DNA from: a virus | Length of the DNA: 22,025 nucleotides | Virus record (IMG/VR): IMGVR_UViG_3300021792_000021 | Span: 1-22,025 of that record | Direction: 5' to 3' (one strand) | In this document: one piece after another, positions 7,947-20,486 of the stretch | Layout: the number at the start of each line of letters is the position of its first letter | Numbering within the stretch: the stretch's first letter is position 1 | Program-made: the position numbers and the translations under genes | Notes under the pieces: model-generated | Seen by the model: the letters and a program-made list of their open reading frames with translations, nothing else | Database searches by the model: none | Told to the model about the DNA's origin: nothing

Positions 7947-8513
7947 TTAGAAAAAAGTATCAAACTGAGTGAAAACAAGGTTTAGCTTTTGTGGCCCACC
8001 TTCTTCTCGTGAAAACTCGTATTCACTACTAACAGGACGCATAAGGTAGTTGTTTTCATACCCGCCTTTATTAGTCTCATCGCTGAAATACGCATGTAAA
8101 ACCCTTATTTTCACTAAGTATTCTGCTGGTAATCCTACTGTTCCATCGGAATGAGCGACCTTTGCAGATGTTTTATCAAACCAGCGTTTAATCTCACCCT
8201 TTTTATTGTCAAATACGGTTATTCGCATTTCCACATTTTCAGTGGTTTTAACTGAATCTAATGATGCAGATCCGATCTGGTGTCGTTCAGAGGGTATTGT
8301 GACAGGGGAAAAAGTAATATCGGTGGTTAAAAGCTGGAATAACTTTCCTCCTCCTTCCACCTCGATTTTGTAAAGTTTTCTTGATGCCAGGCTTATACCC
8401 GCATATTCGCGCATTATTGCGCGGGCTTCGGCTGCGGAAACACCACCAAAGGATGGGGTTGCTACTCCACTGATACCATCTACAAGACAATTACTACTCA
8501 AATCCGTCACCAT
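7947..8513 (-). CDS. Tail-associated 188-aa structural protein
   Basis: The family is not firmly recognised. The frame is open from 8570, but I chose the ATG at 8513. It gives a 20-nt overlap with the end of the portal gene, while the longer start would overlap by 77 nt and add a basic leader read out of portal coding sequence. The protein is mostly beta: LYKIEVEGGGKLFQLL, TDITFSPVTIPSE, ENVEMRITVFDNKKGEIKRWFDKTSAK, EYLVKIRVLHAY, and a closing EYEFSREEGGPQKLNLVFTQFDTFF. The domain with a paired-strand C terminus is like tube-type or tube-initiator proteins of tails. It lies between portal and the tape-measure-like gene. I infer a tail-tube-fold component, for example a terminator, initiator or baseplate tube protein. 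Confidence 0.7.
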   Translation of the reverse strand: MVTDLSSNCLVDGISGVATPSFGGVSAAEARAIMREYAGISLASRKLYKIEVEGGGKLFQLLTTDITFSPVTIPSERHQIGSASLDSVKTTENVEMRITVFDNKKGEIKRWFDKTSAKVAHSDGTVGLPAEYLVKIRVLHAYFSDETNKGGYENNYLMRPVSSEYEFSREEGGPQKLNLVFTQFDTFF

Positions 8514-10044
8514 TAGCACTTTCTTCTTGGACAATTGGCTTTTTGGCGTAAACCTTAGCTTCCGCCTCATCCATCATCATCTGCTTAACCAGGAAATTCT
8601 CAATCATCTCTTCTGATTTGCCCATGTCAGTTAATTGCTGTAGAACACCAACCGCCATACTTGCAGCGTTCATTGACGCGAGCTTGGTTTGTTGCCTTTC
8701 ATTATCCAATGCAGAGATAGAGCCATAGAAATTAATCTGCCAGGGTCTATCTTTGGCTTCAAATACAACACCGTATTTATAATATGTATGAATATTAATC
8801 AGGTCGTTATAGAACGTCTCTAAAGCGTTTCTAATGATTCTCGATGTTTCTCCAATTTGGGCAGAGGTTCTATAGAATCCTCCTTCCCCAAGTCCTCCGC
8901 TTAAAATCTCCGAAAACCCTAGTTGACTTAGATCAATTCCTAGTGCTGAACTTAATAATTTTGCATGAATCATCACATCTTCAATACTAATTGAAGATGT
9001 TCTTCCTGAATTCCCAGCATCTGAAACTTGAGTGAGTTGTTTTTCGCTAAATGTTGGCATTAGATGGGTTATTTTTTCCAGCATTGGCTCGCCATCTTGA
9101 GCTGCTTTTTCTGCTATTGCCTTGCTTTTCAAAAGCATTTCTTTAAAGCTTTTCAGGAAACGCTCCCTTTGTTTTTTTGTCATTCCTGCAAGGTTAACAG
9201 AGAGTATTTTTTCATCGATGGAATCAATCCATCGCTGGCTGGTTAGTCCCAGTAGAGCTTTTGACAGGTTATCGTATGGAGATTCAGCAGAATATAAAAG
9301 AGAACCTCCAACCATTGCTGGCAATAAGTCTAAGTTTTCTATGTCATCTTCTTCAAGATTAAGTCTATAGCCTTTTTCAACGACAGATATTTGTGGAACC
9401 CAGGTCGTTCTTGGCATGCGCATGCGTACCATTTGTCCAAGATTCAGCTTGCCTGACATCTTTTTGCCAGAATAAATGATAAACCCCATAGTCTTATCAC
9501 CCTGTTCGTAAGGTTGGACTAATGGCGGACGAACCATCTCACCCGTGTATACGTTTACTATCCCCTTTTTCTCTTTTACATAAACTCTTCCATAGGCATC
9601 TCCAAACGTAACACCGTTGTATGCCGTTGAGAATGCAATATTATTGAATATGATGTTTAGATCCTCATTAAGCTCCCTGACAATCTTCTCTTTTTGTTTG
9701 TCACCTTCTACATCATGGGCTTTCTCAATAAATATTGTGTCTCCAGTGGTTTCGTGTCCTCCCAATGCCGCTGTTACCAATAAGCGCAATGCTGTTGCTA
9801 TTATCGGATCGGATTCCATTCTGCTCCATTTTCTATAAATCTCTTCGCGGCTTCTAGCAGAACGCTTGCCACTCCCAAGCAGTGATTGAGAAACAGTAGT
9901 ACCTCCATCAAAGGCATAAGAATCTGCTTCACTAATGTTTTCCATTGCATCTGCGGAGATTACAGGTTCAATACGCTGACCATGCTGCTTTTTTTGGAAG
10001 AAAGACCAAAAACCTTTTTTTTTAGATTGATCTGCTTTTGGCAT
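8494..10044 (-). CDS. Portal protein
   Basis: A 516-aa protein, a normal length for portals. The N-terminal region has the typical portal opening: a short basic/aromatic lead (KKGFWSFFQKK), then SREEIYRKWSRMESDP (65-80) followed by a hydrophobic helix IIATALRLLVTAALGG and a beta segment. The middle contains a wing-like beta region (GDAYGRVYVKEKKGIVNVY; VRMRMPRTTWVPQI). It is followed by long helices (FLKSFKEMLLKSKAIAEKAAQ), a Gly/Ser segment (SEILSGGLGEGGFYR) and a helical C terminus rich in Met and Gln, which suits stem and crown. It is the first gene of the minus-strand structural block. No ribosome site is obvious before the ATG at 10044. Twelve subunits would form the DNA channel at the capsid vertex. 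Confidence 0.85.
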   Translation of the reverse strand: MPKADQSKKKGFWSFFQKKQHGQRIEPVISADAMENISEADSYAFDGGTTVSQSLLGSGKRSARSREEIYRKWSRMESDPIIATALRLLVTAALGGHETTGDTIFIEKAHDVEGDKQKEKIVRELNEDLNIIFNNIAFSTAYNGVTFGDAYGRVYVKEKKGIVNVYTGEMVRPPLVQPYEQGDKTMGFIIYSGKKMSGKLNLGQMVRMRMPRTTWVPQISVVEKGYRLNLEEDDIENLDLLPAMVGGSLLYSAESPYDNLSKALLGLTSQRWIDSIDEKILSVNLAGMTKKQRERFLKSFKEMLLKSKAIAEKAAQDGEPMLEKITHLMPTFSEKQLTQVSDAGNSGRTSSISIEDVMIHAKLLSSALGIDLSQLGFSEILSGGLGEGGFYRTSAQIGETSRIIRNALETFYNDLINIHTYYKYGVVFEAKDRPWQINFYGSISALDNERQQTKLASMNAASMAVGVLQQLTDMGKSEEMIENFLVKQMMMDEAEAKVYAKKPIVQEESANGDGFE

Positions 10045-10114
10045 GAGGTTGGGTGCTTAGAGTAATTGACATTACTACATATTTTGAGCTACACAGATCA
10101 TAAAACACTGCTTG

Positions 10115-10123
10115 GTTTTCCGT
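10115..10123 (-). promoter_or_regulatory. ACGGAAAAC motif upstream of the portal gene
   Basis: The minus strand reads ACGGAAAAC, nine bases shared exactly with the site upstream of the tube-like gene (TACGGAAAACTACCC). The distance from its core to the portal start codon is 71 nt, against 68 and 77 nt at the other two sites. TATGAT lies about 12 nt downstream and could be a -10 box. This is the weakest of the three matches because the TACCC half is absent. Confidence 0.3.
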
Positions 10124-10202
10124 TACTAATGAATAGCATTTAGTATATTTATTTCAACAACAATAGTTGTTTATTATCATGATTTTGCTATTATATTTTC
10201 CA

Positions 10203-10267
10203 GCGAAGGTAGTCGCCCAAAAGCAAGCATATTTATATGCTCTCCACTCCTAACAGACTGCTTTCGC
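10203..10267 (+). promoter_or_regulatory. Structured leader just before the tmRNA
   Basis: GCGAAGGTAGTC (10203-10214) can pair along all 12 positions with GACTGCTTTCGC (10256-10267), with two G:U pairs. The enclosed loop contains a second inverted repeat, AGCATATTTATATGCT (10226-10241). The outer stem ends 4 nt before the mature 5' end of the tmRNA at 10272. It could be a processing signal, a separate small RNA or part of a promoter region. On the minus strand the inner repeat reads TATAAATA, identical to the T4 late promoter core, which could instead serve the portal operon. The pairing is visible; the function is not known. Confidence 0.4.
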
Positions 10268-10271
10268 CTCT

Positions 10272-10619
10272 GGGGACGACCAGGATTCGATAAAGAACTG
10301 AGTTGATTTTCTACATGCAGGGTGATGATTAAACATCCTTAAACAAATAATCAAACAATAGTTGCAAACGATAGCAATTACACTCCTGATTTAGCTCTAG
10401 TAGCTTAAACCAGCGGATCACTACTGATGTCAGATAGGTAGATGATTTGTCATGAATCTGGCAACAACCGTATCCTCTTAAAGACGGTAAACAATAGACG
10501 GAGACAGCCTAAAGTTTCATTTACTGGCATGGCTCAAAACAAACAAAAAATGAGAAGCATGTATAACGGAATTTAATAGGTTACTTTAGACGGCGGTTCG
10601 ATTCCGCCCGTCTCCACCA
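10272..10619 (+). ncRNA. ssrA: Phage-encoded one-piece tmRNA, tag ANDSNYTPDLALVA
   Basis: A 348-nt transfer-messenger RNA that would free stalled ribosomes and add a degradation tag. The acceptor stem is GGGGACG (10272-10278) with CGTCTCC (10609-10615), then ACCA, so CCA is encoded. The third pair is G:U, the alanine identity element of tmRNAs. The T arm is GGCGG-TTCGATT-CCGCC (10592-10608). The conserved AGGATTCGA follows the acceptor. The P2 helix includes TACATGC (10312-10318) with GCATGTA (10557-10563). Pseudoknot 1 has stem GGGTG/CATCC (10320-10324 with 10334-10338) and stem TGATTA/TAATCA (10326-10331 with 10348-10353). The resume codon GCA is at 10364, ten bases after the pseudoknot. 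The tag frame of 14 codons ends with TAA at 10406-10408. CCGT/ACGG stems further on may be later pseudoknots. The surrounding phage genes argue that the phage, not the host chromosome, carries it. Confidence 0.95.
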
Positions 10620-10637
10620 AATATCATTGGCAAGCAT

Positions 10638-10664
10638 AAAAAGTGCTTTCAAGATGGTCTTTTT
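10638..10664 (+). terminator. Possible weak terminator after the tmRNA
   Basis: AAAAAG (10638-10643) can pair with CTTTTT (10659-10664), with a 15-nt loop. An alternative stem AAGCA/TGCTT sits just upstream. It begins 18 nt after the CCA end. It is weak and AT-only, so read-through is possible. Confidence 0.3.
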
Positions 10665-10909
10665 ATCATTTTCATACATCAAGAAAGCGAGAACCTTCAG
10701 GCAGGCAATGGGGTAATAAACCTGTCAGAACTACGCAGAGATTACCTTGTCTTTGTTGGTGGTTCCGTTTGATCTACGATACAGATCACTCCTCAACCAA
10801 ACCTACCGTTTATCAGATGATTGTTATTTTTAATAGCCAAAAGGGTTAAGAATAGCTATAGTAAAAACACCCAAAGCAATTAATAAAAAAATATACAAAG
10901 GTGATAAAT
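10665..10909 (+). other. Non-coding stretch between tmRNA and the next gene
   Basis: No convincing gene is seen. A two-part stem-loop is visible at 10760-10799: TGGTT/AACCA, an internal loop, then TGATCT/AGATCA around a 7-nt loop. A second possible hairpin is GGCAGG with CCTGTC near 10700-10730. A -10-like TATAGT lies at 10857-10862, about 48 nt before the ATG at 10910, without a good -35 at 17 bp. The stretch may be a leader of the gene at 10910 or the remains of another RNA. Confidence 0.4.
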
Positions 10910-11383
10910 ATGAAAAAAATTAATAATGAAAAAGTAACCCATTTATTGGTAAATAAGAAAACAAAAAAAGCACTCTTACTGGATAAGAACGAAGTGAAAG
11001 CTTATAAACATCTAAAAAAAGAAGCAAAAGGCAAGGGAAGAAAAGCAGATGCTGCCAGAAGAATGCTAAGTGGATACACGGCATCAGTAGTTTTTGCTGC
11101 ACTAGCATTCGTAGCATCCCCAAACGAGGCTTCTGCCTGTGATCGTTATGCTTCTTGCACTAACAACACCTCACTCGAAGCAGCTTATGAAGCCGTACAG
11201 CCAGTCTATAACTGGAATACTGTCATTGCTGAATTTACCAAAGGTATTAACAAGGGTATTAAGGATGGTAATCGTGCTAACTATTTGGTTCAAATTAAAA
11301 GTAAGGCTACATCTAAAACACTTATAAGTTTTGAGATGTCATGCTTTATAAAAGACACTTTCTGGAAGTGTTACAGCAACTAA
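10910..11383 (+). CDS. Small exported protein with long basic N-terminal region
   Basis: A 157-aa protein, family not recognised. The ATG at 10910 has AAAGGTG 6 nt upstream; an in-frame GTG at 10901 lies inside that ribosome site and is rejected. Residues 1-52 are basic and Lys-rich. Residues 55-70 (GYTASVVFAALAFVAS) are hydrophobic, followed by NEASAC, so signal peptidase I could cut after Ala76. The mature part, ~81 residues, has Cys at 77, 83, 145 and 154, enough for two disulfides, and a helix around AAYEAVQPVYNW. The long segment ahead of the hydrophobic core recalls extended signal peptides; alternatively it could be a single-pass inner membrane protein. It is the first coding gene after the tmRNA and is followed by a second exported protein. 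A role in altering the host envelope, such as superinfection exclusion, is only a guess. Confidence 0.75.
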   Translation: MKKINNEKVTHLLVNKKTKKALLLDKNEVKAYKHLKKEAKGKGRKADAARRMLSGYTASVVFAALAFVASPNEASACDRYASCTNNTSLEAAYEAVQPVYNWNTVIAEFTKGINKGIKDGNRANYLVQIKSKATSKTLISFEMSCFIKDTFWKCYSN

Positions 11384-11409
11384 CTAATCATAAATAGATA
11401 AAAAATAAT

Positions 11410-11436
11410 ATATGGGTACTTTTCAAGTGCCCATAT
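11410..11436 (+). terminator. Strong 12-bp hairpin between the two exported-protein genes
   Basis: ATATGGGTACTT pairs with AAGTGCCCATAT over 12 bp (one T:G pair) with a 3-nt loop TTC. It starts 27 nt after the stop at 11383 and ends 25 nt before the next ATG. No T run follows, so it may be an mRNA-processing or stabilising hairpin rather than a true intrinsic terminator. Confidence 0.4.
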
Positions 11437-11461
11437 TCGATTATTAGAGGTAAATTATATA

Positions 11462-11710
11462 ATGAAAATTAAATTAACAGTGCTGCCTTTGTTATTCAGC
11501 TTTGCGGTCACTACATCCTATGCTGGATGTGTTTTTGATGCAGGTTCAACAAAGTACTTAATAAATAAAAATGGCACTTATAGTTTTTATAGAGGCAATC
11601 TCTCGGGTAAAAAATGCGATTATGAGTACAGAACTAAGTATTGGAGAGGGAAAAATGGCAAAGGCAAAAAGAGAACCGTTTTTTTGTCAAAGTTGGAGCG
11701 ATTATTATAG
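11462..11710 (+). CDS. Small secreted protein, 82 aa
   Basis: I do not recognise a family. Residues 1-21 are a classical signal peptide: MKIK, hydrophobic LTVLPLLFSFAV, then TTSYA, with cleavage expected after Ala21 (S-Y-A). The following GC could look like a lipobox, but Tyr at -3 fits poorly. The mature protein is about 61 residues, with two cysteines (23 and 52) that could form one disulfide. It is basic, especially near the end (YWRGKNGKGKKRTVF). AGAGG lies about 11 nt before the ATG. With the preceding gene it forms a pair of small exported products next to the tmRNA. Such morons often act at the cell envelope, but nothing in this sequence shows a function. Confidence 0.7.
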   Translation: MKIKLTVLPLLFSFAVTTSYAGCVFDAGSTKYLINKNGTYSFYRGNLSGKKCDYEYRTKYWRGKNGKGKKRTVFLSKLERLL

Positions 11711-11771
11711 AGCTTAAGGACTTCTGAATTTGAAAAGAGGATTTCCATAACTAATCTTTTTGAGTCTATTG

Positions 11772-11987
11772 TTAGGCTTGATCTTGCACACTGTTTTTTA
11801 ATAGCTCATTAAAAAACAGTGTTGTAATTGTTACCGTTTTTGCGTTTTTGAACTGGTTTATCTTTTGTCTGCCGTTTTTAATCCCATACTTTTCTTCTAA
11901 GTAAATAGCTAATTGATTATGGTTTTCTGTGCCAGTTGCCTTTATTAAGTGATTTAATATTGATTTATTTGTAATTATTTTATTCAT
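11772..11987 (-). CDS. Putative small HTH DNA-binding protein (repressor-like)
   Basis: A 71-aa protein. Residues ~8-47 show a pattern like the N-terminal helix-turn-helix of small phage repressors: NHLIKATGTENHNQLAIYLEEKYG, then a recognition-like helix KNGRQKINQFKNAK. There is no C-terminal oligomerisation domain beyond one helix (TTLFFNELLKN). AGGA lies 9 nt before the ATG at 11987. It is transcribed away from the plus-strand gene at 12067, and the shared 79-bp gap holds a strong promoter overlapped by an inverted repeat, the classic layout of a repressor and its target. The last 12 codons contain a 15-bp perfect inverted repeat (11788-11822). The HTH assignment is by eye and could be wrong. 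Confidence 0.55.
   Translation of the reverse strand: MNKIITNKSILNHLIKATGTENHNQLAIYLEEKYGIKNGRQKINQFKNAKTVTITTLFFNELLKNSVQDQA
11788..11822. repeat. Perfect 15-bp inverted repeat inside the 3' end of the HTH gene
   Basis: ACACTGTTTTTTAAT (11788-11802), a 5-nt loop AGCTC, then ATTAAAAAACAGTGT (11808-11822). The arms are fully complementary. It encodes the residues around TLFFNELLKNS of the minus-strand gene. It may be a hairpin limiting convergent transcription from 11710, a protein-binding dyad, or an mRNA-stability element. It lacks a trailing T run on either strand. Confidence 0.6.
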
Positions 11988-12002
11988 TTTGTAAATATCC
12001 TA

Positions 12003-12031
12003 TTGACGTGGTTAGTATATGTAAATATAGT
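12003..12031 (+). promoter_or_regulatory. Sigma70-like promoter for the 12067 gene
   Basis: TTGACG at 12003-12008 and TATAGT at 12026-12031 are spaced by exactly 17 bp, 36 nt before the ATG at 12067. This is the best consensus-type promoter in the window. The inverted repeat at 12017-12041 covers its -10 box. Confidence 0.7.
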
Positions 12032-12041
12032 ATATACATAT
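12017..12041. promoter_or_regulatory. Candidate operator (ATATGTA...TACATAT)
   Basis: A 7-bp perfect inverted repeat (12017-12023 with 12035-12041) with an 11-bp centre lies across the -10 box of the plus-strand promoter, in the gap shared with the divergent HTH gene. Its size suits a dimeric repressor. A minus-strand promoter for the HTH gene may overlap it (TTGAAT with AT-rich boxes downstream), which would allow autoregulation. Confidence 0.45.
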
Positions 12042-12066
12042 TCAATGAACAGCAAGAAAACAAATT

Positions 12067-12312
12067 ATGAAAGCGGCTAATGATTCAAATTTCTCAAGTA
12101 CTTTTTTTGTAGGTCAAAAAGTAGAGGCGAGATTTATAGGCGACTCATCTGTAAAGCTAAAAGGTAAAGTAATAAAAAGAACTAAATGCTTTGTATGGGT
12201 TGATGTTTCTGGAGTAGGCGTTAAGCGTTGCAAAGTTAAAGTTTGTGATAATGTAGAATACATTTTACCTTTAGGTGATTATTCTATGGCTCCTAGGTTT
12301 AAAGCGGCATGA
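12067..12312 (+). CDS. Small conserved-looking phage/plasmid protein, 81 aa
   Basis: The function is not known to me. The protein has a short polar lead, then a beta-rich core typical of a small SH3-like barrel: FVGQKVEARFIGDSS (14-28), KLKGKVIKRTKCFVWVDV (31-48), GVKRCKVKVCDNVEYILP (51-68). It ends with GDYSMAPRF, a motif I recall from accessory proteins of phages and conjugative plasmids. Three cysteines are present. It has a strong promoter of its own under a likely operator, so it is probably expressed early or upon de-repression. Only a weak purine stretch (AAGAAAA) precedes the ATG. A nucleic-acid-binding role is possible from the fold pattern, but this is inference. Confidence 0.7.
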   Translation: MKAANDSNFSSTFFVGQKVEARFIGDSSVKLKGKVIKRTKCFVWVDVSGVGVKRCKVKVCDNVEYILPLGDYSMAPRFKAA

Positions 12313-12342
12313 ATTACTCAATAAGATTAACCTGCTACAATG

Positions 12343-12377
12343 ACGTTTGTTAGACGATAAATATCTCAAACAAGCGT
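12343..12377 (+). terminator. Hairpin after the 81-aa gene
   Basis: ACGTTTGTT (12343-12351) pairs with AACAAGCGT (12369-12377) over 9 bp with one T:G pair and a 17-nt loop. It lies 31 nt after the stop codon. A-rich rather than T-rich sequence follows, so termination is uncertain. Confidence 0.3.
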
Positions 12378-12446
12378 TAAAAATATTAGTTTACTTTAGA
12401 AATCCTAAGTATGATTTGCCCGAGAATTTGGAGTTGGAGATATAAA

Positions 12447-12710
12447 ATGATAGAAGTTGATGGATTGAGGTATCACGTTACTTCGAAATTTGAAGATAAC
12501 GAGCAGGGAATCAGCTCTGCAAATAAATACATGCAGAGCCATCCAGATGAAACGGTATTAACAATAAAAGATGGAGAAATAATTTTAACAAAAGCTAATG
12601 ATTTGGGTATAGCGTCTACAAATACATTGTCTGCCACAAAAAAGTGGTTAAAAAATCTAGCTGTATATCCAGAGGAAAACGAAATAAACTTCAGGCAAAA
12701 GACTGGATAA
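12447..12710 (+). CDS. Hypothetical protein, 87 aa
   Basis: Family not recognised. I chose the ATG at 12447 because GGAG lies 7 nt upstream (GGAGATATAAAATG); the in-frame ATG at 12411 adds 12 residues with no ribosome site. The protein reads as a compact alpha/beta unit: MIEVDGLRYHVTSKFEDNEQ, a helix GISSANKYMQSHPDE, strands TVLTIKDGEIILTKAND, then a helix around SATKKWLKNLAV and an acidic/basic end. It is acidic overall in the first half. There are no cysteines, signal peptide or membrane segments. It follows the 81-aa gene on the same strand after a 134-bp gap with a hairpin, and it converges with the anti-restriction operon. Confidence 0.65.
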   Translation: MIEVDGLRYHVTSKFEDNEQGISSANKYMQSHPDETVLTIKDGEIILTKANDLGIASTNTLSATKKWLKNLAVYPEENEINFRQKTG

Positions 12711-12718
12711 TTTGGGTC

Positions 12719-12746
12719 TGCTCTGAGGGTGTTAACCTACAGAGCA
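12719..12746. terminator. Hairpin between convergent genes
   Basis: TGCTCTG (12719-12725) pairs with CAGAGCA (12740-12746), extended by AGG/CCT with one bulged A. It sits between the stop of the plus-strand gene (12710) and the stop of the minus-strand 44-aa gene (12783), where a two-way terminator would be expected. No clear T run follows on either strand. Confidence 0.4.
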
Positions 12747-12782
12747 AACATTATGATTTAAACAGCAGATACGATGAAATTT

Positions 12783-12917
12783 CTAGTCTTCACTATCTTC
12801 ATCTTCATCTTCATAAAGATCATCGTAATTGATGCCTTCCTGGTTGCACAACTCCTCCTCATTGTCGTACTTTCCGCTATCCAGCATATCCTGATATTTT
12901 TTGATCATTTTAGCCAT
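12783..12917 (-). CDS. Small acidic protein, 44 aa
   Basis: A short gene: ATG at 12917, stop TAG at 12783-12785. AGGAG lies 7 nt before the start (AGGAGTTAAATTATG), an excellent ribosome site. The product begins MAKMIKKYQDMLDSGKYDNEEE, has one Cys, and ends in a strongly acidic tail (YEDEDEDSED). The tail is written with GAAGAT repeats, so the DNA is locally repetitive. It is the last gene of the minus-strand block that carries the Dar-like genes, 83 bp after the 141-aa gene, with a hairpin (12962-12980) between. Acidic-tail microproteins of phages often mimic DNA or bind basic host proteins; nothing here shows which, if either, applies. Confidence 0.6.
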   Translation of the reverse strand: MAKMIKKYQDMLDSGKYDNEEELCNQEGINYDDLYEDEDEDSED

Positions 12918-12961
12918 AATTTAACTCCTAATAATGCACAATAATATGAGAATGAATGACG

Positions 12962-12980
12962 GGTCAATGTGCCTTTGACC
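12962..12980 (-). terminator. Short hairpin after the 141-aa gene
   Basis: GGTCAA (12962-12967) pairs with TTGACC (12975-12980) around a 7-nt loop, and an outer C:G pair is possible across a bulge. It lies 20-39 nt after the stop at 13001 on the minus strand. There is no T run. It may separate expression of the 44-aa gene from the large genes. Confidence 0.3.
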
Positions 12981-13000
12981 GCATCTACATAAATTTTACC

Positions 13001-13426
13001 TTATTTTGTATATAAAGTAACCATATCATCATCATGTAAAAGATATTTATCACCATCATCGTTGATAATGAATTCTTTTACACCCTGGAAAAAAGTCTTG
13101 TCGTATATTGTCTTGAATTCATAAGCAAGGATGATTGAATTCAAGTCATTAGAACCAGAATAGATACTTCTGACAACTTCATCTTTTTCTGGCATTTCAG
13201 AATTAAACATTCCATGCTCGATAAGGATTCTTTTTAACTCCCACCAATAAACACCAAACCTGATGTAGTTATCTGGTTTTTTCAGAACAAAATCTCTTGC
13301 GATAGTTGCTAGTTCAACAACAGGTGCTTTGTCTTTATTTTTCCAAAATAACTCTACTTGAGTTGCATTCTCCTCTAGCTGTTCTTTTTTTAAAATATTA
13401 TCGGGTAAATAAAACTCATATTTCAT
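13001..13426 (-). CDS. Hypothetical protein, 141 aa, in the anti-restriction operon
   Basis: I do not recognise it. The frame is open from 13453, but the ATG at 13426 is preferred: AAGAGA lies about 8 nt upstream, and this start falls 13 nt after the stop of the 2348-aa gene instead of overlapping it. The protein is acidic and mainly helical (KKEQLEENATQVELFWKNKD; VVELATIARDFVLKKP; FGVYWWELKRILIEHG), with an acidic C-terminal beta hairpin (FIINDDGDKYLLHDDDMVTLYTK). It has no cysteines, signal peptide or membrane segments. Placement directly after a DarB-like gene suggests a partner, or a small head-packaged product as in the P1 dar operons, but there is no sequence sign of that. Confidence 0.75.
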   Translation of the reverse strand: MKYEFYLPDNILKKEQLEENATQVELFWKNKDKAPVVELATIARDFVLKKPDNYIRFGVYWWELKRILIEHGMFNSEMPEKDEVVRSIYSGSNDLNSIILAYEFKTIYDKTFFQGVKEFIINDDGDKYLLHDDDMVTLYTK

Positions 13427-13439
13427 AGTTAAGTTCTCT

Positions 13440-16400
13440 TTAAATATCAGCAAGGGTTATATTTCTTTCCCTTACCTCTTCAGGGTATTTTTCAAGAATA
13501 GCATTATAGACACGCCTTGATACTATCCAGCTTTTATCTGGTGGGTATTTAATGCGTCTTTTAACCGCTTTTCCACCGCTCCATGCTGCCCAGTCATCAC
13601 CATCCTGCTTGGTTCCTACTTCCTTGGCTACATCTTTTATTTCACCGTTAAAGCCATATGTATCGCCAATAATTGCAACCCACTCCAGAGGATCTTCAAG
13701 ATCAATCTTTTGGGAGTCAAGAACCTTGTCAAGATCATGAGGTTGTACGTTTATCTCGTCTACTTCCTCCAAAAACTTTATTTTTTCAGCATTATCCTGA
13801 AGCTGATTGAATTCTATCAATTCATCATCAGATAACTGAGAATAGGCAATATCTCTCATTCTTTCTTTGTTTACAGTAAAGACTCTTTGGGCATCACCAT
13901 GAACCCCAATAAATTCCTCAAAGTTAGAAGCATCAGCCGTATCAGATAAGTTAAATACTCTGTACTTGTCATTATCATAACGTAACACAACATGACGATC
14001 TCTGTATGACAAATCAGCACTTCCAGGTATATCACCACCACTTGAGATAACAATAGGGAGCTTATCTATCTTTTCTTTAACTTTAGACAGCTTTAAATCC
14101 ATAGATTTACGTTCAAGCTCAGCTTCTTTGGCATTTAATAATCTTTTAATGCCATGATGAATATCATCAAGATGTTCTTCGCCTGTAAACTTATACAGAG
14201 GGAAACTATCAACAACATATTCTCTCGTAATGCTTACTATTTCCTCTGTGTTTTCGACAGTAGAGAGTCTCTTTTCAAGCTCTTCAAGAGAAACTGATTT
14301 ATTTGTTGCAACCCCCAAAAGATGGAATACATTACTTTTGAACGTGTATTTATCTATACCCGTTGCATCAGCATCTGCAATCTGTAGTTGCTCGTCATAA
14401 GCTACACTTGCTTTCACAAGCTCTTTAAGCTTTTCTTTTTCATCTGTTCTCTCTACGCTTAGAACAGCATCTTTTTTTATAAAAGCAAGATCACCTTCAA
14501 TATGAATTTTACCTTTATGTGACTCTGATATCTTTTTAATAAGACCTGATTCTGAATTCGCATAACTCCTGAGCGCATAAGGGTATATTGCATCAGAGAG
14601 CACAAAAAACTCAGCATTGCTCAAGTTGACCGCATATTTATCAATATTTGCATTTTCAATCAATTCTGCCACATCGTGGTTGTATGTTGAATAACCTTGG
14701 AATGTTTCTTCGACCTTCATTTGATTGCTGCCATAACGTACAGAGACAACTCTCGATTCAGCACCACGCTTTTTAATTGACTGATTATCAATACTAGCGG
14801 CCTTTCTTACTATCGCTTTGTAGTTAGAGCTTTCTCTGTTGACTACATCACCAGATAATAATACCGACGGCTCTTGGTATGTTGGATAACCATCATCATC
14901 AAATGAAATTAAACTATGATTTCCATTTTGTTTGATTCTACTGATAATACAAATGGCTTCTGAATTTAGAATAAAATCACCAACTTCTACTATCTTACCC
15001 TGAATAATATCCGCAGTGCCATCTTCAAAGCCTTCGATTCTTGAAGCGTCTATGCCAGCATCCTTACTGAGTTGTTTGGCTTTTTCTTTTCCTTCTACCA
15101 TTAAGGCTTTTGCTGTCTCTACTTCAACCATCCAGTCGTCTTTAATTTCTGAATCATCCGAAACAGTAGTGTTTATCCCGTAAGAGTACCCCCCAATAAG
15201 TCCAGTTAAGTTCTTTAACTGCAAAATACCCTTTGAGGTTCTATAGCGACTTGATTTTATGGTCTCAACGATATCGATATCCTGCCAATCCTCATTGGCA
15301 TAAGATCCTTTGTTTTCTTTTATCAAAACAGCGTTGTTTATTGCTTTTGCTAGTCTCTCAATGGTCTTGTTAGCAGCCTCAATTCTGTTTCTTGCTCTTT
15401 TTGCAGCATTAATATTACGCTGACTCTCTTTTTTGCCGTCTTCCTTGTCTTTTTCAATTTTTGCAAGAGTTGAGTTTAGCGTTCTTTGAGATGCTTCTTG
15501 CCCGTGAATGACAGTTGCAAGTTCGTAAATCTTCTCATTTAAGAAAACGTTAAACTTATCTTCATATTTATCGAGTATTTTCCGCTGTGATTTAATCAAG
15601 ACAGCATTCGATACTACCGTGTCAATAAGTGCTTTCTTTTTTGCTTCCTCAAACTTTTTCTTTGTGGCCGCCCTTGCTTTCCTAATGGCTTCTTCATCGC
15701 CCACTGAATTAATTAGAATATCAGCATCTTCTTTACTGATTCCTCCCTCAACAACAATGTTGTCACTATCATTGCCCGAGACCAGACCATTAATCCAATT
15801 AGCCTTTGAACTAACTAATTCTCTTTTATAATTATCAAAAGTACCATCTGCATCATAATGGTAAACATTAATTCCTTTAACATAATTTCCCTGACGAATA
15901 CCTCTACCATTCCTCTGTTGCTCAGAATCAGGAGTCCATCCCATTGTTAAATGGTGTATTGCCTGAGTGCCTTTTTGAAGGTTTATACCAACTTCTGCTT
16001 TTTTATTCGCAATAATGACCTCGTAGCCATTATCATCACCTTCCGCGTTGTATGAGTCCTGAATATCCTGCATCTCAGCAGGATCTTTTACAGATTGACC
16101 ATTAAGAATCATTATTTTATTGGCAGGCACACCGCAATTTTTTGCGATAATGATTTTTAGTTTATTATGCATTCCCAGCATGTCACAGAATACAATTTGT
16201 TTTGCCATTGTTGGCTTGTCTTTAGGGCTTTTAGGGTTTGCTTTTTCATCATTAAACTTTTCAATGAATGCAGCAACCTTTGGGGATATAGAAGCATCTA
16301 GTGTCAACCCCATAGATTCAGCAAGTTTAATAAACTTTAATTGATTACCATAATCTTCAGTATCAATTAAAACCTTTCCATCTTTAAAGAACGCCTTTAT

Positions 16401-19400
16401 CTGAACAATATCAAGCAAAACAACATTATCATCACCATCAGCTGTCGTTGCTACATCAGAAATTGTTTCCAATACGGCTTCATCTGTTTGTAGCGGTGTT
16501 TTTCTTCCGTGACCACGTTTTTCAGTGATTGGTAGCTTCTTTTTACCTGTACGAATGCTATTGAACTTTTTAACCGCTTCCTTGGCTAAATCGTATTGAT
16601 CTTCAGGAATAAAAAACACAGTAGACTGCCTAGCCAAATCTTCATCAATAATGAGCTTGTTCATTTTATTGATGAGGTTAAATGGATGAGCAATTAATGG
16701 AATTGTTTCACCTGTGATTTGCATGTAATCTCTTAAGAGATTCATTTCTGCGCTGGTAGGCACATCCGATTTACTATCAGCTTTTCGGGCAATGCGATAA
16801 ACCTCTTTCAGCCCCTTTAGTTCCTGAACCACGTTATCAGGAAGCTCAATGTTAGTGTCGATGTTTTCGTAATCAGGTATTTTAAGATTTACATCTTCAG
16901 CCGTTTTGATTTTGGCTGTACCGTGAAGAATATCGCGCAAGAATGGCACGTTACCCAATCCAGTAAATACTCTTGTTGTAACTGATTCCCCTAGGAGATT
17001 TACATCATCAGTCTCATCAATAACTGTAAACATCTCAAGAAAATCATCAGCACCTTTAATTCCTCCTAAACGCCTATTTAGCTCTTCTTCTCCCACGGCA
17101 AGTGACAGCATTGAGTACATCTCAAGAGGGCTATTTGTAATGGGCGTAGCGGTAAGAGGCAAAACACCATCCCCTTTTTCAGATTTACCCCTGATATACC
17201 AGGATTTTGCAAGAGCGTCTGTACCACGTCTTGATTCTTTTGACAGGGATAATCTTTTTGCGCCTTTAAATTCAACAGCTCTTTTGGAGTTTTTGAACAT
17301 ATGTGCCTCATCAATAATTAATGAGTCAAATCCCATATCTTCAAAGAAAGGAAAGGCATCGTTTTTCTGGTTACCAGTAAGCTCAGCTATTAATGTTTTC
17401 TTTTTTAATTCATCAGTTTTGTTAGTCGCACCAAGATCATCATAGACACGGTCTACTTTGCGCATATGATCAATATACTTACCCCATGTCTCTTCTTTTA
17501 AAGGTATCATTTCAAACGCACTTAGCGTCATAAACACCTTAGAGTGCTCATTTTCAAGGATCTTCATCATATCCCTGGCATAATCGGCAGATCTTACCTT
17601 ATCATTACCATCTTTATCTTTTGATAAGCCGACGAAAAGACAATTTGATGTATCCTTAAACCACATCTTTGTCTCTTTTTTCCAATTTGACAGTGTCGAA
17701 TTAGGGACAATAGTGAGGGTTTTTTTCTTGATTCTTCTGGATTGCAAATACTCAATAGTTGACAAGGCAACAGCAGTCTTACCAAGACCTACGTCATATC
17801 CCATAAGCCCTTTCATATTCTTAGCGTAGGCTCTAACGGCTACGTTTTGATAATCATGAAGAGAGAATTTCTCAGACAATCCTGGTATATCTAAAGCCTC
17901 GCCATTCTCTTCTTCGTAAAAATAAATATTTTTTGGATCAGAGAAACGATTCTTTAGCTCTTCCTGAATACTGGAGTTCGCACGGGTCCATGCATCAAAT
18001 TGTTGATTTGTATTGTTCACAAGCGTTCGCAGACGTTCAACACGCTCTTTTTCTCTTTTGGGATTCTTTTTCTTGTCTTCCTGATTGGTTCCAGTTGTAA
18101 AAGTGCCTTTAGTTATATATTGGGCAAATCTTTTAAGATTACGTTTTCTTTCTTCGAATTCTTCTATGTTTACCGCATCACCCTTGCCAGAATCAGAGTG
18201 TTTATACTCAATAATCTCTCTACCATTATCATCGTAAACAACAATAAAAGAGCCAGAACCAAGATCTGGAGTGTATTTATTCAGAAATTCAACTTTTCTT
18301 CGCGTAGAGATTAAAGGAGATTTGATATTAAATTTTAACTGCTTATGATCTATCTTTATTATTCTTGACTCGGCAATTAGCTGTTGTTTAGCAAGCTTCT
18401 CTCTTAATTTTTCATCGGAAATATTATGCTCAGCATCAGCATGCCTATCAAGAAAGTCCTGATAGTTGCCAGAATAGTAATCATCTGCGCTTTTTACGCC
18501 TTTTCCGTCATTCGACAAGCACCAATCATCATCCTCATAGGGATCTACCCCAAGATTTTCTTTGAAGGTCTCAATATCTATAAAGCCGTCTTTATCTACA
18601 TGCTTTTCCATGTATTTGAGGTTGTCGTACTTATATTCATCTACATCAATATCATCAGATAGACCTGTTCCTCCGATACCCATCCAAACATTGGAAAGAC
18701 CATTTTTGTTAGAATAAAAAGTATTTAGTTTCTTTGACACGCGCTTAGGTGCAAAGCCAGCTCTACTACTAAGTAATTTAGATTTACCCGCATATCGCTT
18801 TATCATCTCTGTTAATTTTGGATAATGCTCAGAGAAGTTGAAGGGCAGATTTGCAGAATGCTCATTAAAAACAAGCTCCGCTGAATAAGCTACCAATAGA
18901 TAATTAAATAAATCATCAGCATTAGAGTCATTACCAATGACTACAGCAGATTTAATTTGAGTCGCCCAGCTAGGTACTTCTTGATGTCTTCCAAGCTCAT
19001 ACATGCCCTCTATTGCATCAAACGCTTGATCTTTAGTAATTCCTCCTTCTAATGCCGACAATGGTGTTGCCAGAGCCGACATAACCGTCATTAACCCAAT
19101 ATCTTTTTTAAATGCTGTGCTTCCTTCTTCTTTTACAAATTGCCCCTTTCTAAAAACATAGGGAACCCCTGAAATGTATTTTACATCCCCATCCTGATAC
19201 TGAATGACTTCGGGTTCACTCGTTTCAATTAGCTTCCAATTAATTCGTGAATCGTCAAGACGCTTCATTAATTTAGAAATATTTGCAATGGAATCATCCG
19301 ATATAACACGCTCAACATCTTTACCAAATTTATTCTTGGCAATTACCACTTTTCCAAAAATATTCTTCTTACTGCTTGCAAGTTTAAAATATTTCCCGGT

Positions 19401-20486
19401 AATAAATGGCTGCCAGAAAACATTTGCTTCTACTAACAATTCCGCATTTGACTGTCTTAGATCTGCGATTTTATCAAGCGTCTCTCTGCTGTGTTTTTTG
19501 AACACAAGCACATCGCTAGTTACATCTGCTCCAGCAAATGTACTAATTTCTTTAGCGTTACCTGCTTTTGTTTTTTCTCCTGTGTCCTGTGCGTTTGGTA
19601 GTCTAAACGCTCCTCTGAATTCAGCCATTGCTGATATTTTTAGCCGTACTTTTTCGAGAGACTGACTATTTATGAGTTTAGACGAAGAAATAAAGGCAGC
19701 AACACCGCCTGGCTTAAGTTTCTCAAGAGATCTAAGGACAAAATAGGCCTCCAGTGATTCTTTTTGGTACTTTGTGTCTTTAAACTGGTTTCCACCACGG
19801 CTTAAGTTGCTTCCAAATGGAATATTTGTAATAACAGCATCATACATCTCATCTGGTGTGCTTGCTGCCACCTCCTCAAAAGAGGATATTTTTACATTGC
19901 CATTTTCCCCATTAAGAGCTTTATTTATACCGCCTGATATTTCGTCCAGTTCAACAGCTTCTACTACTGCACTCTTAGGAGCTGCTCCCCCAAATATCCC
20001 CGTACCGGATGATGGATCTAATACAGCTCCGCCTTTAAATCCAGCAGCTTCAAGAAGCCTCCATGTTGCCTCTGCCAATGGTTTTGGCGTGTAATATTCG
20101 TAGGGTGAACCAGTTTTCCCATCCACGCCTGTCAATCCACCACCGTTGCCTGTGTATGCGGCAAGAGCTGATTTTTGCTCATCGGTAAGTTCGGATGTAG
20201 ATATTTCTCCAGAATTTATTTTTCCTAGTATTTCTACGGCAAAATTATTTGCGAGTTGTCTTTTTCGTGGATTAAGCTCAACTGAATCTGGATAATATTT
20301 TGACGTTGATTTTCTTTCTTTGGCTTTAGTTTTAGGCTTTATGGAGCCACCAAGCAAAAGAATCTGCTCTTTAAGCTGTTTTTTTAGAGTCCGCTTTTCC
20401 TTGATTTTAGGATTGCCTGAAAGCCCTGTTATCGCTTTTTTGAGTAGCTTCTTGGCTTTACGCCTGTCTTTTATACCTAATGTCAT
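13440..20486 (-). CDS. darB-like: DarB-like polyvalent anti-restriction protein (methyltransferase + SNF2 helicase)
   Basis: A giant protein of 2348 aa, in the size class of phage P1 DarB. Residues 1-70 are very basic. About 125-330 is an adenine-N6 methyltransferase-type domain: YEYYTPKPLAEA, motif I DPSSGTG (157-163), an acidic residue after strand 2 (VEAVELDE), motif IV NIPFG (221-225). About 870-1560 is a superfamily 2, SNF2-like helicase: YQNVAVRAYAKN, Walker A DVGLGKT near 896, DEAH near 1058, LTATPITNSP near 1110, and motif VI QRNGRGIRQGN near 1522. Residues ~1615-1725 are a long coiled coil. The C-terminal ~600 residues are unrecognised. It starts directly after the stop of the DdrB-like gene (TAAATG), with AGGAGG 8 nt upstream. 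P1 DarB is packaged and injected and protects DNA in cis against type I restriction. The domains are clear; the protective role is inferred. Confidence 0.85.
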   Translation of the reverse strand: MTLGIKDRRKAKKLLKKAITGLSGNPKIKEKRTLKKQLKEQILLLGGSIKPKTKAKERKSTSKYYPDSVELNPRKRQLANNFAVEILGKINSGEISTSELTDEQKSALAAYTGNGGGLTGVDGKTGSPYEYYTPKPLAEATWRLLEAAGFKGGAVLDPSSGTGIFGGAAPKSAVVEAVELDEISGGINKALNGENGNVKISSFEEVAASTPDEMYDAVITNIPFGSNLSRGGNQFKDTKYQKESLEAYFVLRSLEKLKPGGVAAFISSSKLINSQSLEKVRLKISAMAEFRGAFRLPNAQDTGEKTKAGNAKEISTFAGADVTSDVLVFKKHSRETLDKIADLRQSNAELLVEANVFWQPFITGKYFKLASSKKNIFGKVVIAKNKFGKDVERVISDDSIANISKLMKRLDDSRINWKLIETSEPEVIQYQDGDVKYISGVPYVFRKGQFVKEEGSTAFKKDIGLMTVMSALATPLSALEGGITKDQAFDAIEGMYELGRHQEVPSWATQIKSAVVIGNDSNADDLFNYLLVAYSAELVFNEHSANLPFNFSEHYPKLTEMIKRYAGKSKLLSSRAGFAPKRVSKKLNTFYSNKNGLSNVWMGIGGTGLSDDIDVDEYKYDNLKYMEKHVDKDGFIDIETFKENLGVDPYEDDDWCLSNDGKGVKSADDYYSGNYQDFLDRHADAEHNISDEKLREKLAKQQLIAESRIIKIDHKQLKFNIKSPLISTRRKVEFLNKYTPDLGSGSFIVVYDDNGREIIEYKHSDSGKGDAVNIEEFEERKRNLKRFAQYITKGTFTTGTNQEDKKKNPKREKERVERLRTLVNNTNQQFDAWTRANSSIQEELKNRFSDPKNIYFYEEENGEALDIPGLSEKFSLHDYQNVAVRAYAKNMKGLMGYDVGLGKTAVALSTIEYLQSRRIKKKTLTIVPNSTLSNWKKETKMWFKDTSNCLFVGLSKDKDGNDKVRSADYARDMMKILENEHSKVFMTLSAFEMIPLKEETWGKYIDHMRKVDRVYDDLGATNKTDELKKKTLIAELTGNQKNDAFPFFEDMGFDSLIIDEAHMFKNSKRAVEFKGAKRLSLSKESRRGTDALAKSWYIRGKSEKGDGVLPLTATPITNSPLEMYSMLSLAVGEEELNRRLGGIKGADDFLEMFTVIDETDDVNLLGESVTTRVFTGLGNVPFLRDILHGTAKIKTAEDVNLKIPDYENIDTNIELPDNVVQELKGLKEVYRIARKADSKSDVPTSAEMNLLRDYMQITGETIPLIAHPFNLINKMNKLIIDEDLARQSTVFFIPEDQYDLAKEAVKKFNSIRTGKKKLPITEKRGHGRKTPLQTDEAVLETISDVATTADGDDNVVLLDIVQIKAFFKDGKVLIDTEDYGNQLKFIKLAESMGLTLDASISPKVAAFIEKFNDEKANPKSPKDKPTMAKQIVFCDMLGMHNKLKIIIAKNCGVPANKIMILNGQSVKDPAEMQDIQDSYNAEGDDNGYEVIIANKKAEVGINLQKGTQAIHHLTMGWTPDSEQQRNGRGIRQGNYVKGINVYHYDADGTFDNYKRELVSSKANWINGLVSGNDSDNIVVEGGISKEDADILINSVGDEEAIRKARAATKKKFEEAKKKALIDTVVSNAVLIKSQRKILDKYEDKFNVFLNEKIYELATVIHGQEASQRTLNSTLAKIEKDKEDGKKESQRNINAAKRARNRIEAANKTIERLAKAINNAVLIKENKGSYANEDWQDIDIVETIKSSRYRTSKGILQLKNLTGLIGGYSYGINTTVSDDSEIKDDWMVEVETAKALMVEGKEKAKQLSKDAGIDASRIEGFEDGTADIIQGKIVEVGDFILNSEAICIISRIKQNGNHSLISFDDDGYPTYQEPSVLLSGDVVNRESSNYKAIVRKAASIDNQSIKKRGAESRVVSVRYGSNQMKVEETFQGYSTYNHDVAELIENANIDKYAVNLSNAEFFVLSDAIYPYALRSYANSESGLIKKISESHKGKIHIEGDLAFIKKDAVLSVERTDEKEKLKELVKASVAYDEQLQIADADATGIDKYTFKSNVFHLLGVATNKSVSLEELEKRLSTVENTEEIVSITREYVVDSFPLYKFTGEEHLDDIHHGIKRLLNAKEAELERKSMDLKLSKVKEKIDKLPIVISSGGDIPGSADLSYRDRHVVLRYDNDKYRVFNLSDTADASNFEEFIGVHGDAQRVFTVNKERMRDIAYSQLSDDELIEFNQLQDNAEKIKFLEEVDEINVQPHDLDKVLDSQKIDLEDPLEWVAIIGDTYGFNGEIKDVAKEVGTKQDGDDWAAWSGGKAVKRRIKYPPDKSWIVSRRVYNAILEKYPEEVRERNITLADI

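Follow-up and report, generated by a model that had tools for sequence, protein, structure and literature searches.

The window analysed here, a 22-kb linear virus record that represents a fragment of a P1-like myophage, carries a single one-piece tmRNA gene (ssrA), which probably encodes a functional RNA active in trans-translation and belongs to the accessory cargo of the phage. It provides the P1-like lineage with an example of a structurally intact one-piece tmRNA. Because most relatives have almost nothing at the junction where it lies, phages with and without the gene can be compared in one conserved setting.

The gene was located by ARAGORN at positions 10272-10619 on the plus strand, as the only tmRNA of the window and with the tag ANDSNYTPDLALVA followed by a stop. 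The Rfam model RF00023 matched the identical interval over its full length (model positions 1-374) with 131.6 bits (E 1.1e-51), the gathering score being 47 bits, and the ends are thus the same in two independent detectors. Both programs had been proposed as a check by a sequence-only reading of this DNA, whose claim of a complete tmRNA with these coordinates is borne out together with its list of features: the G3:U pair, the T arm, the encoded CCA, the P2 helix, the first pseudoknot (PK1), and the tag frame with its stop are each present (Table 1). The alanine identity set is complete and comprises G3:U with intact flanking pairs, the discriminator A, and the CCA end. In a structured-RNA energy test the signal was modest (z -2.2), as is expected for a pseudoknotted RNA.

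Table 1 Features of the tmRNA gene and its surroundings (positions in the window)
Feature	Position	Strand	Details	Source
Portal gene, P1-like	8494..10044	-	phrog_1497
Accessory insertion, portal to ulx-like gene	10045..13000	.	2,956 bp
Possible promoter	10167..10194	+	TTGTTT, 16 nt, extended -10 TGC-TATTAT; below scanner threshold	By eye
One-piece tmRNA (ssrA)	10272..10619	+	348 nt, CCA encoded	ARAGORN and Rfam RF00023
Acceptor stem, 5' half	10272..10278	+	7 bp; GGGGACG, pairs with CGUCUCC (10609-10615); third pair G:U
PK1	10319..10353	+	Stems AGGGUG/CAUCCU and UGAUU/AAUCA; upstream of tag
Tag reading frame	10364..10408	+	ANDSNYTPDLALVA and UAA stop; GCA resume codon preceded by AAUAGUU	ARAGORN and sequence
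PK2	10415..10462	+	GGAUCA-CUAC/GUAG-A-UGAUUU and GUCAGAU/AUCUGGC
PK3, first stem	10467..10488	+	ACCGU/ACGGU; without convincing second stem
PK4	10506..10555	+	AGCC/GGCU and 8-bp second stem UUUCAUUU/AAAUGAGA
T arm	10592..10608	+	GGCGG-UUCGAUU-CCGCC; holds compensated pair 10594-10606
Small ORF	10901..11383	+	Internal ATG start possible at 10910; without family match
Small ORF	12067..12312	+	N-terminus MKAANDSNF
Ulx-like antirestriction gene	13001..13453	-
DarB-like methyltransferase-helicase	13440..20486	-	2,348 aa

The tag ANDSNYTPDLALVA comprises 14 residues, with an alanine resume codon and an in-frame stop, and is unlike the usual tags of the ANDDNYALAA type. Its product, AANDSNYTPDLALVA, ends in LVA as opposed to LAA, an ending that is still read by ClpXP. 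The second of the small ORFs listed in Table 1 starts with a sequence similar to the beginning of the tag product (AANDSNY), encoded by different codons; this likeness is probably a coincidence. The sequence-only reading had named the presence of all four pseudoknots as support. Three of them could be traced, namely PK1, PK4, and PK2, the second stem of which has 7 bp and can be lengthened to 8; for PK3 a second stem was not found, the best candidate being no better than chance when compared with shuffles. Equally good second stems occurred in about 2% of the shuffles for PK1, about 1% for PK2, and about 6-7% for PK4; each shuffle involved the same loop and the downstream stretch, and the loops were picked by eye, so that these percentages are indicative. 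Tagging needs only PK1, PK2 to PK4 being interchangeable and dispensable for this activity (PMC3968760).

A phage tmRNA might also serve as a decoy: by competition for stalled ribosomes, SmpB or AlaRS, it would damp or redirect host trans-translation, for example by swapping the host tag for one preferred by the phage. Such a role could be read from the departure of the tag from the usual type and from phage DS6A, which has little beyond a tRNA-like domain, a similar molecule being a strong inhibitor of tmRNA (PMC4131195). However, the mRNA part, the tag frame, the stop, and P5 are all retained here, none of which a pure decoy would need, and the tag keeps the hydrophobic LVA end expected for proteolysis; we therefore regard this role as unlikely.

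For a comparison with cellular tmRNAs, 274 genomes from the GTDB class to which a Nitrosomonas genome belongs were used, 270 of which gave a match and 235 a match above the cut-off. Among the matches listed, cellular one-piece tmRNAs mostly scored 160-264 bits, and the weakest primary cellular copies, including two from genomes of 0.3-0.4 Mb, reached 135-144 bits; the score of the phage tmRNA lies at about the lower edge of this range. The phage RNA agrees with cellular tmRNAs (n=50) in 62 of the 72 columns that show a conservation of 95% or more among the cellular sequences, compared with 67-72 for the cellular sequences themselves, values which are flattered because the same sequences served to define the columns. 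Two pairs that are invariant in all 50 cellular tmRNAs are exchanged as a whole, pair 20-317 from C-G to U-A and pair 323-335 from G-C to C-G, and the first stem of PK1 departs from its cellular counterpart yet pairs. Since the changes at the two invariant pairs are compensated, the sequence fits a tmRNA whose structure has long been under selection, one that has diverged rather than decayed into a dead copy.

This bears on the possibility that the gene is a passenger, that is, a copy of a host ssrA or of an attachment site which was gained by recombination and has been drifting without function. Phages can integrate at ssrA (PMC9004378), no tmRNA gene was found in most relatives, and the covariance score is low, all of which would suit such an origin. 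Nevertheless, it is distinctly improbable: drift alone would rarely change two invariant pairs with compensation, what is present is the complete gene instead of a 3' att fragment, the neighbourhood encodes no integrase, and a BLAST search (1e-8) of 369 genomes from a proteobacterial class, run without a positive control, detected no close cellular counterpart. An attachment-site fragment in the strict sense is ruled out by the full-length gene and the lack of an integrase near it. Neither phages nor plasmids yielded a useful match in similarity searches with the tmRNA, and 18 host genomes of relatives gave only short matches to the T arm. In a tree, the phage tmRNA was placed weakly beside other viral tmRNAs (support of 0.94 for L068 and 0.50-0.61 for the wider group); this grouping could be due to long-branch attraction, and the placement therefore supports no conclusion.

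The window contains a P1-type gene set comprising the portal, the tail tube, a large tape-measure-like protein with similarity to transglycosylases, and Hdf-, Ulx-, and DarB-like antirestriction proteins. The portal protein is 54% identical to that of Xanthomonas phage Rb1, 34% to that of Acinetobacter phage ABMM1, and about 26% to Prt of P1. Judged from these genes, the source is a bacterial virus with a distant relationship to phage P1. About 55 loci, which derive from relatives in proteobacterial genomes and from viral contigs, keep the order darB-(ulx)-portal-tube, and on either side of the tmRNA gene lie genes of this one phage lineage. Its immediate neighbours are those described in the sequence-only reading, with the portal gene on the minus strand to the left and small genes, mostly on the plus strand, to the right. 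The assignment of the tmRNA to the phage, likewise claimed before, is upheld by the full-length covariance match, the conserved order of the P1-like genes that surround it, and the compensated pairs.

Between ulx and the portal gene, the distance is 2,956 bp in the present phage, 6-114 bp in 16 of the 25 relatives for which ulx could be placed (including some near-identical ones), and 687-4043 bp in the remaining nine. As the gap is nearly empty in most relatives and spans 0.7-4 kb in others, the junction is, on this comparison of gene order, a variable accessory site of P1-like phages. Here, the insertion holds the tmRNA gene and several small AT-rich genes, most of which lie on the strand opposite to that of the neighbouring operons; for the accessory ORFs, searches returned no family or phage match. 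A perfect 15-bp inverted repeat with a loop of 5 nt (11788-11822) may be a terminator between convergent small genes. In the loci L191, L198, L177, L230, L240, and L202, the junction holds 0.7-4 kb of differing content, and it is a possible place for defence or counter-defence genes.

The absence of the insert at this junction in most relatives and its higher AT content (33.5% GC versus about 38-40%) could also be taken as signs of an assembly chimera, in which phage DNA was joined to a piece of host chromosome. This is extremely unlikely, as both flanks belong to one P1-like lineage with conserved order, other relatives carry different inserts of 0.7-4 kb at the same junction, and the genes next to the tmRNA include no bacterial housekeeping gene. 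A chimera was rejected on the conserved gene order in relatives, which together with the short junction in most of them places the tmRNA in an accessory ("moron") insertion. A near-identical phage or a second copy of the tmRNA-bearing lineage was looked for and not found; in the relatives, no tmRNA was found near the portal gene in the loci L125-L235, and none scored above the cut-off in 50 whole viral records, many of which are fragments.

Our preferred reading, a functional tmRNA, implies the following sequence of events. Transcription would start from the gene's own plus-strand promoter, for which a candidate is given in Table 1, divergently from the late minus-strand genes; a scan of the window for promoters and terminators gave no strong call. 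The 5' end would be trimmed by RNase P, alanine would be attached by AlaRS, and the charged RNA would be loaded with SmpB and EF-Tu, all of them supplied by the host. No smpB gene was detected within the 22-kb fragment, and since all sequence elements for alanylation, SmpB-dependent entry, and tagging are present, we infer ordinary trans-translation with the SmpB protein of the host. Ribosomes stalled on truncated mRNA would then be released and AANDSNYTPDLALVA would be added, a tag whose C-terminal LVA host proteases of the ClpXP type should recognise. For the phage, the probable benefit is that ribosomes keep cycling while mRNAs of host or phage origin are being cleaved in the infected cell, either through an extra dose of tmRNA or through a tmRNA that is resistant to host interference. 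Points against a functional gene are the score close to the lowest cellular values, the agreement in no more than 62 of 72 conserved columns, the incomplete PK3, the lack of a strong promoter or terminator call, and the failure to detect smpB in the fragment. The earlier suggestion that the phage uses its tmRNA on ribosomes stalled after decay of host mRNA is plausible; weighing on it are the latter result and the fact that most relatives yielded no tmRNA.

The closest named relative, Xanthomonas phage Rb1 (PQ569993), also bears a tmRNA (L002 9239-9544; RF04321, 103.4 bits versus 47; tag ANDDNFRPALRLAA). In contrast to the present one, it is circularly permuted and betaproteobacteria-like, and it has tRNA genes as neighbours, at a distance of about 11 kb upstream from the portal gene. 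In the surrounding region (L002 8826-9782, corresponding to about 15887-16843 of PQ569993.1), two tRNA genes flank the tmRNA, and the record has no annotated feature there. The two architectures and their different places point to separate acquisitions, and the tmRNAs of Rb1 and the present phage thus seem to have been acquired independently. Taken together, they suggest that this phage group gained ribosome rescue on more than one occasion, and such repeated gain makes the purpose of phage tmRNAs experimentally approachable. A more far-reaching proposal is that P1-like phages repeatedly acquire tmRNAs of differing architecture because a host defence or the phage programme stalls ribosomes, so that the tmRNA would serve counter-defence or tag switching rather than dosage alone; we consider this rather unlikely. 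One-piece tmRNAs with the unusual tags ANDDFNQIALAA, ANDDFNQIAIAA, and ANDSNYEQAIAA were also observed in viral contigs of 44-61 kb (L111 825-1171, L114 1713-2059, and L037 695-1046, respectively), the first adjoined by a PhoH-like and the third by a GroES-like gene. A search of viral contigs with the tag pattern yielded two other tmRNAs (L037 and L261), while two further matches were dismissed as chance hits, apparently within protein genes.

Phage-borne ssrA genes had been described in the sequence-only reading as known but rare and mostly confined to large phages. That they are known holds true: an earlier catalogue comprised mycobacteriophages and Bacillus phage G and gave DS6A as having the tRNA-like domain only (PMC4131195), and huge phages carry both tmRNA and SmpB (PMC7162821). 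Their rarity is tempered by a count of 402 tmRNA-bearing genomes among 18,146 phage genomes, or 2.3% (PMC9004378), and by at least 119 IMG/VR stretches matching a tmRNA-like pattern, many of which are prophage flanks and not all tmRNAs. In the literature covered, which was incomplete, no report of a tmRNA in P1-like phages was found.

With the bacterial one-piece tmRNA (RF00023), the present RNA shares the full-length model match, G3:U, the T arm, CCA, P2, PK1, PK2, PK4, and a tag with stop; it differs in being phage-borne, in its lower score, in its 14-residue tag, and in the second stem of PK3, which was not found. Complete ssrA genes are likewise present in the mycobacteriophages Bxz1, Catera, and Wildcat, Bacillus phage G, the OM43 phage Melnitz, and huge phages (PMC4131195, PMC9004378, PMC7162821). 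Some huge phages add smpB, in contrast to the 22-kb fragment studied here, and the tmRNA of Melnitz is a two-piece RNA with a riboswitch, whereas the present one is a one-piece RNA. What sets it apart from all of these phage tmRNAs is its P1-like lineage and its position in a small accessory insertion that separates the antirestriction genes from the portal gene. As phage tmRNAs were already known, it does not represent a new kind of system; it is a well-supported new example of a known one in an unusual lineage.
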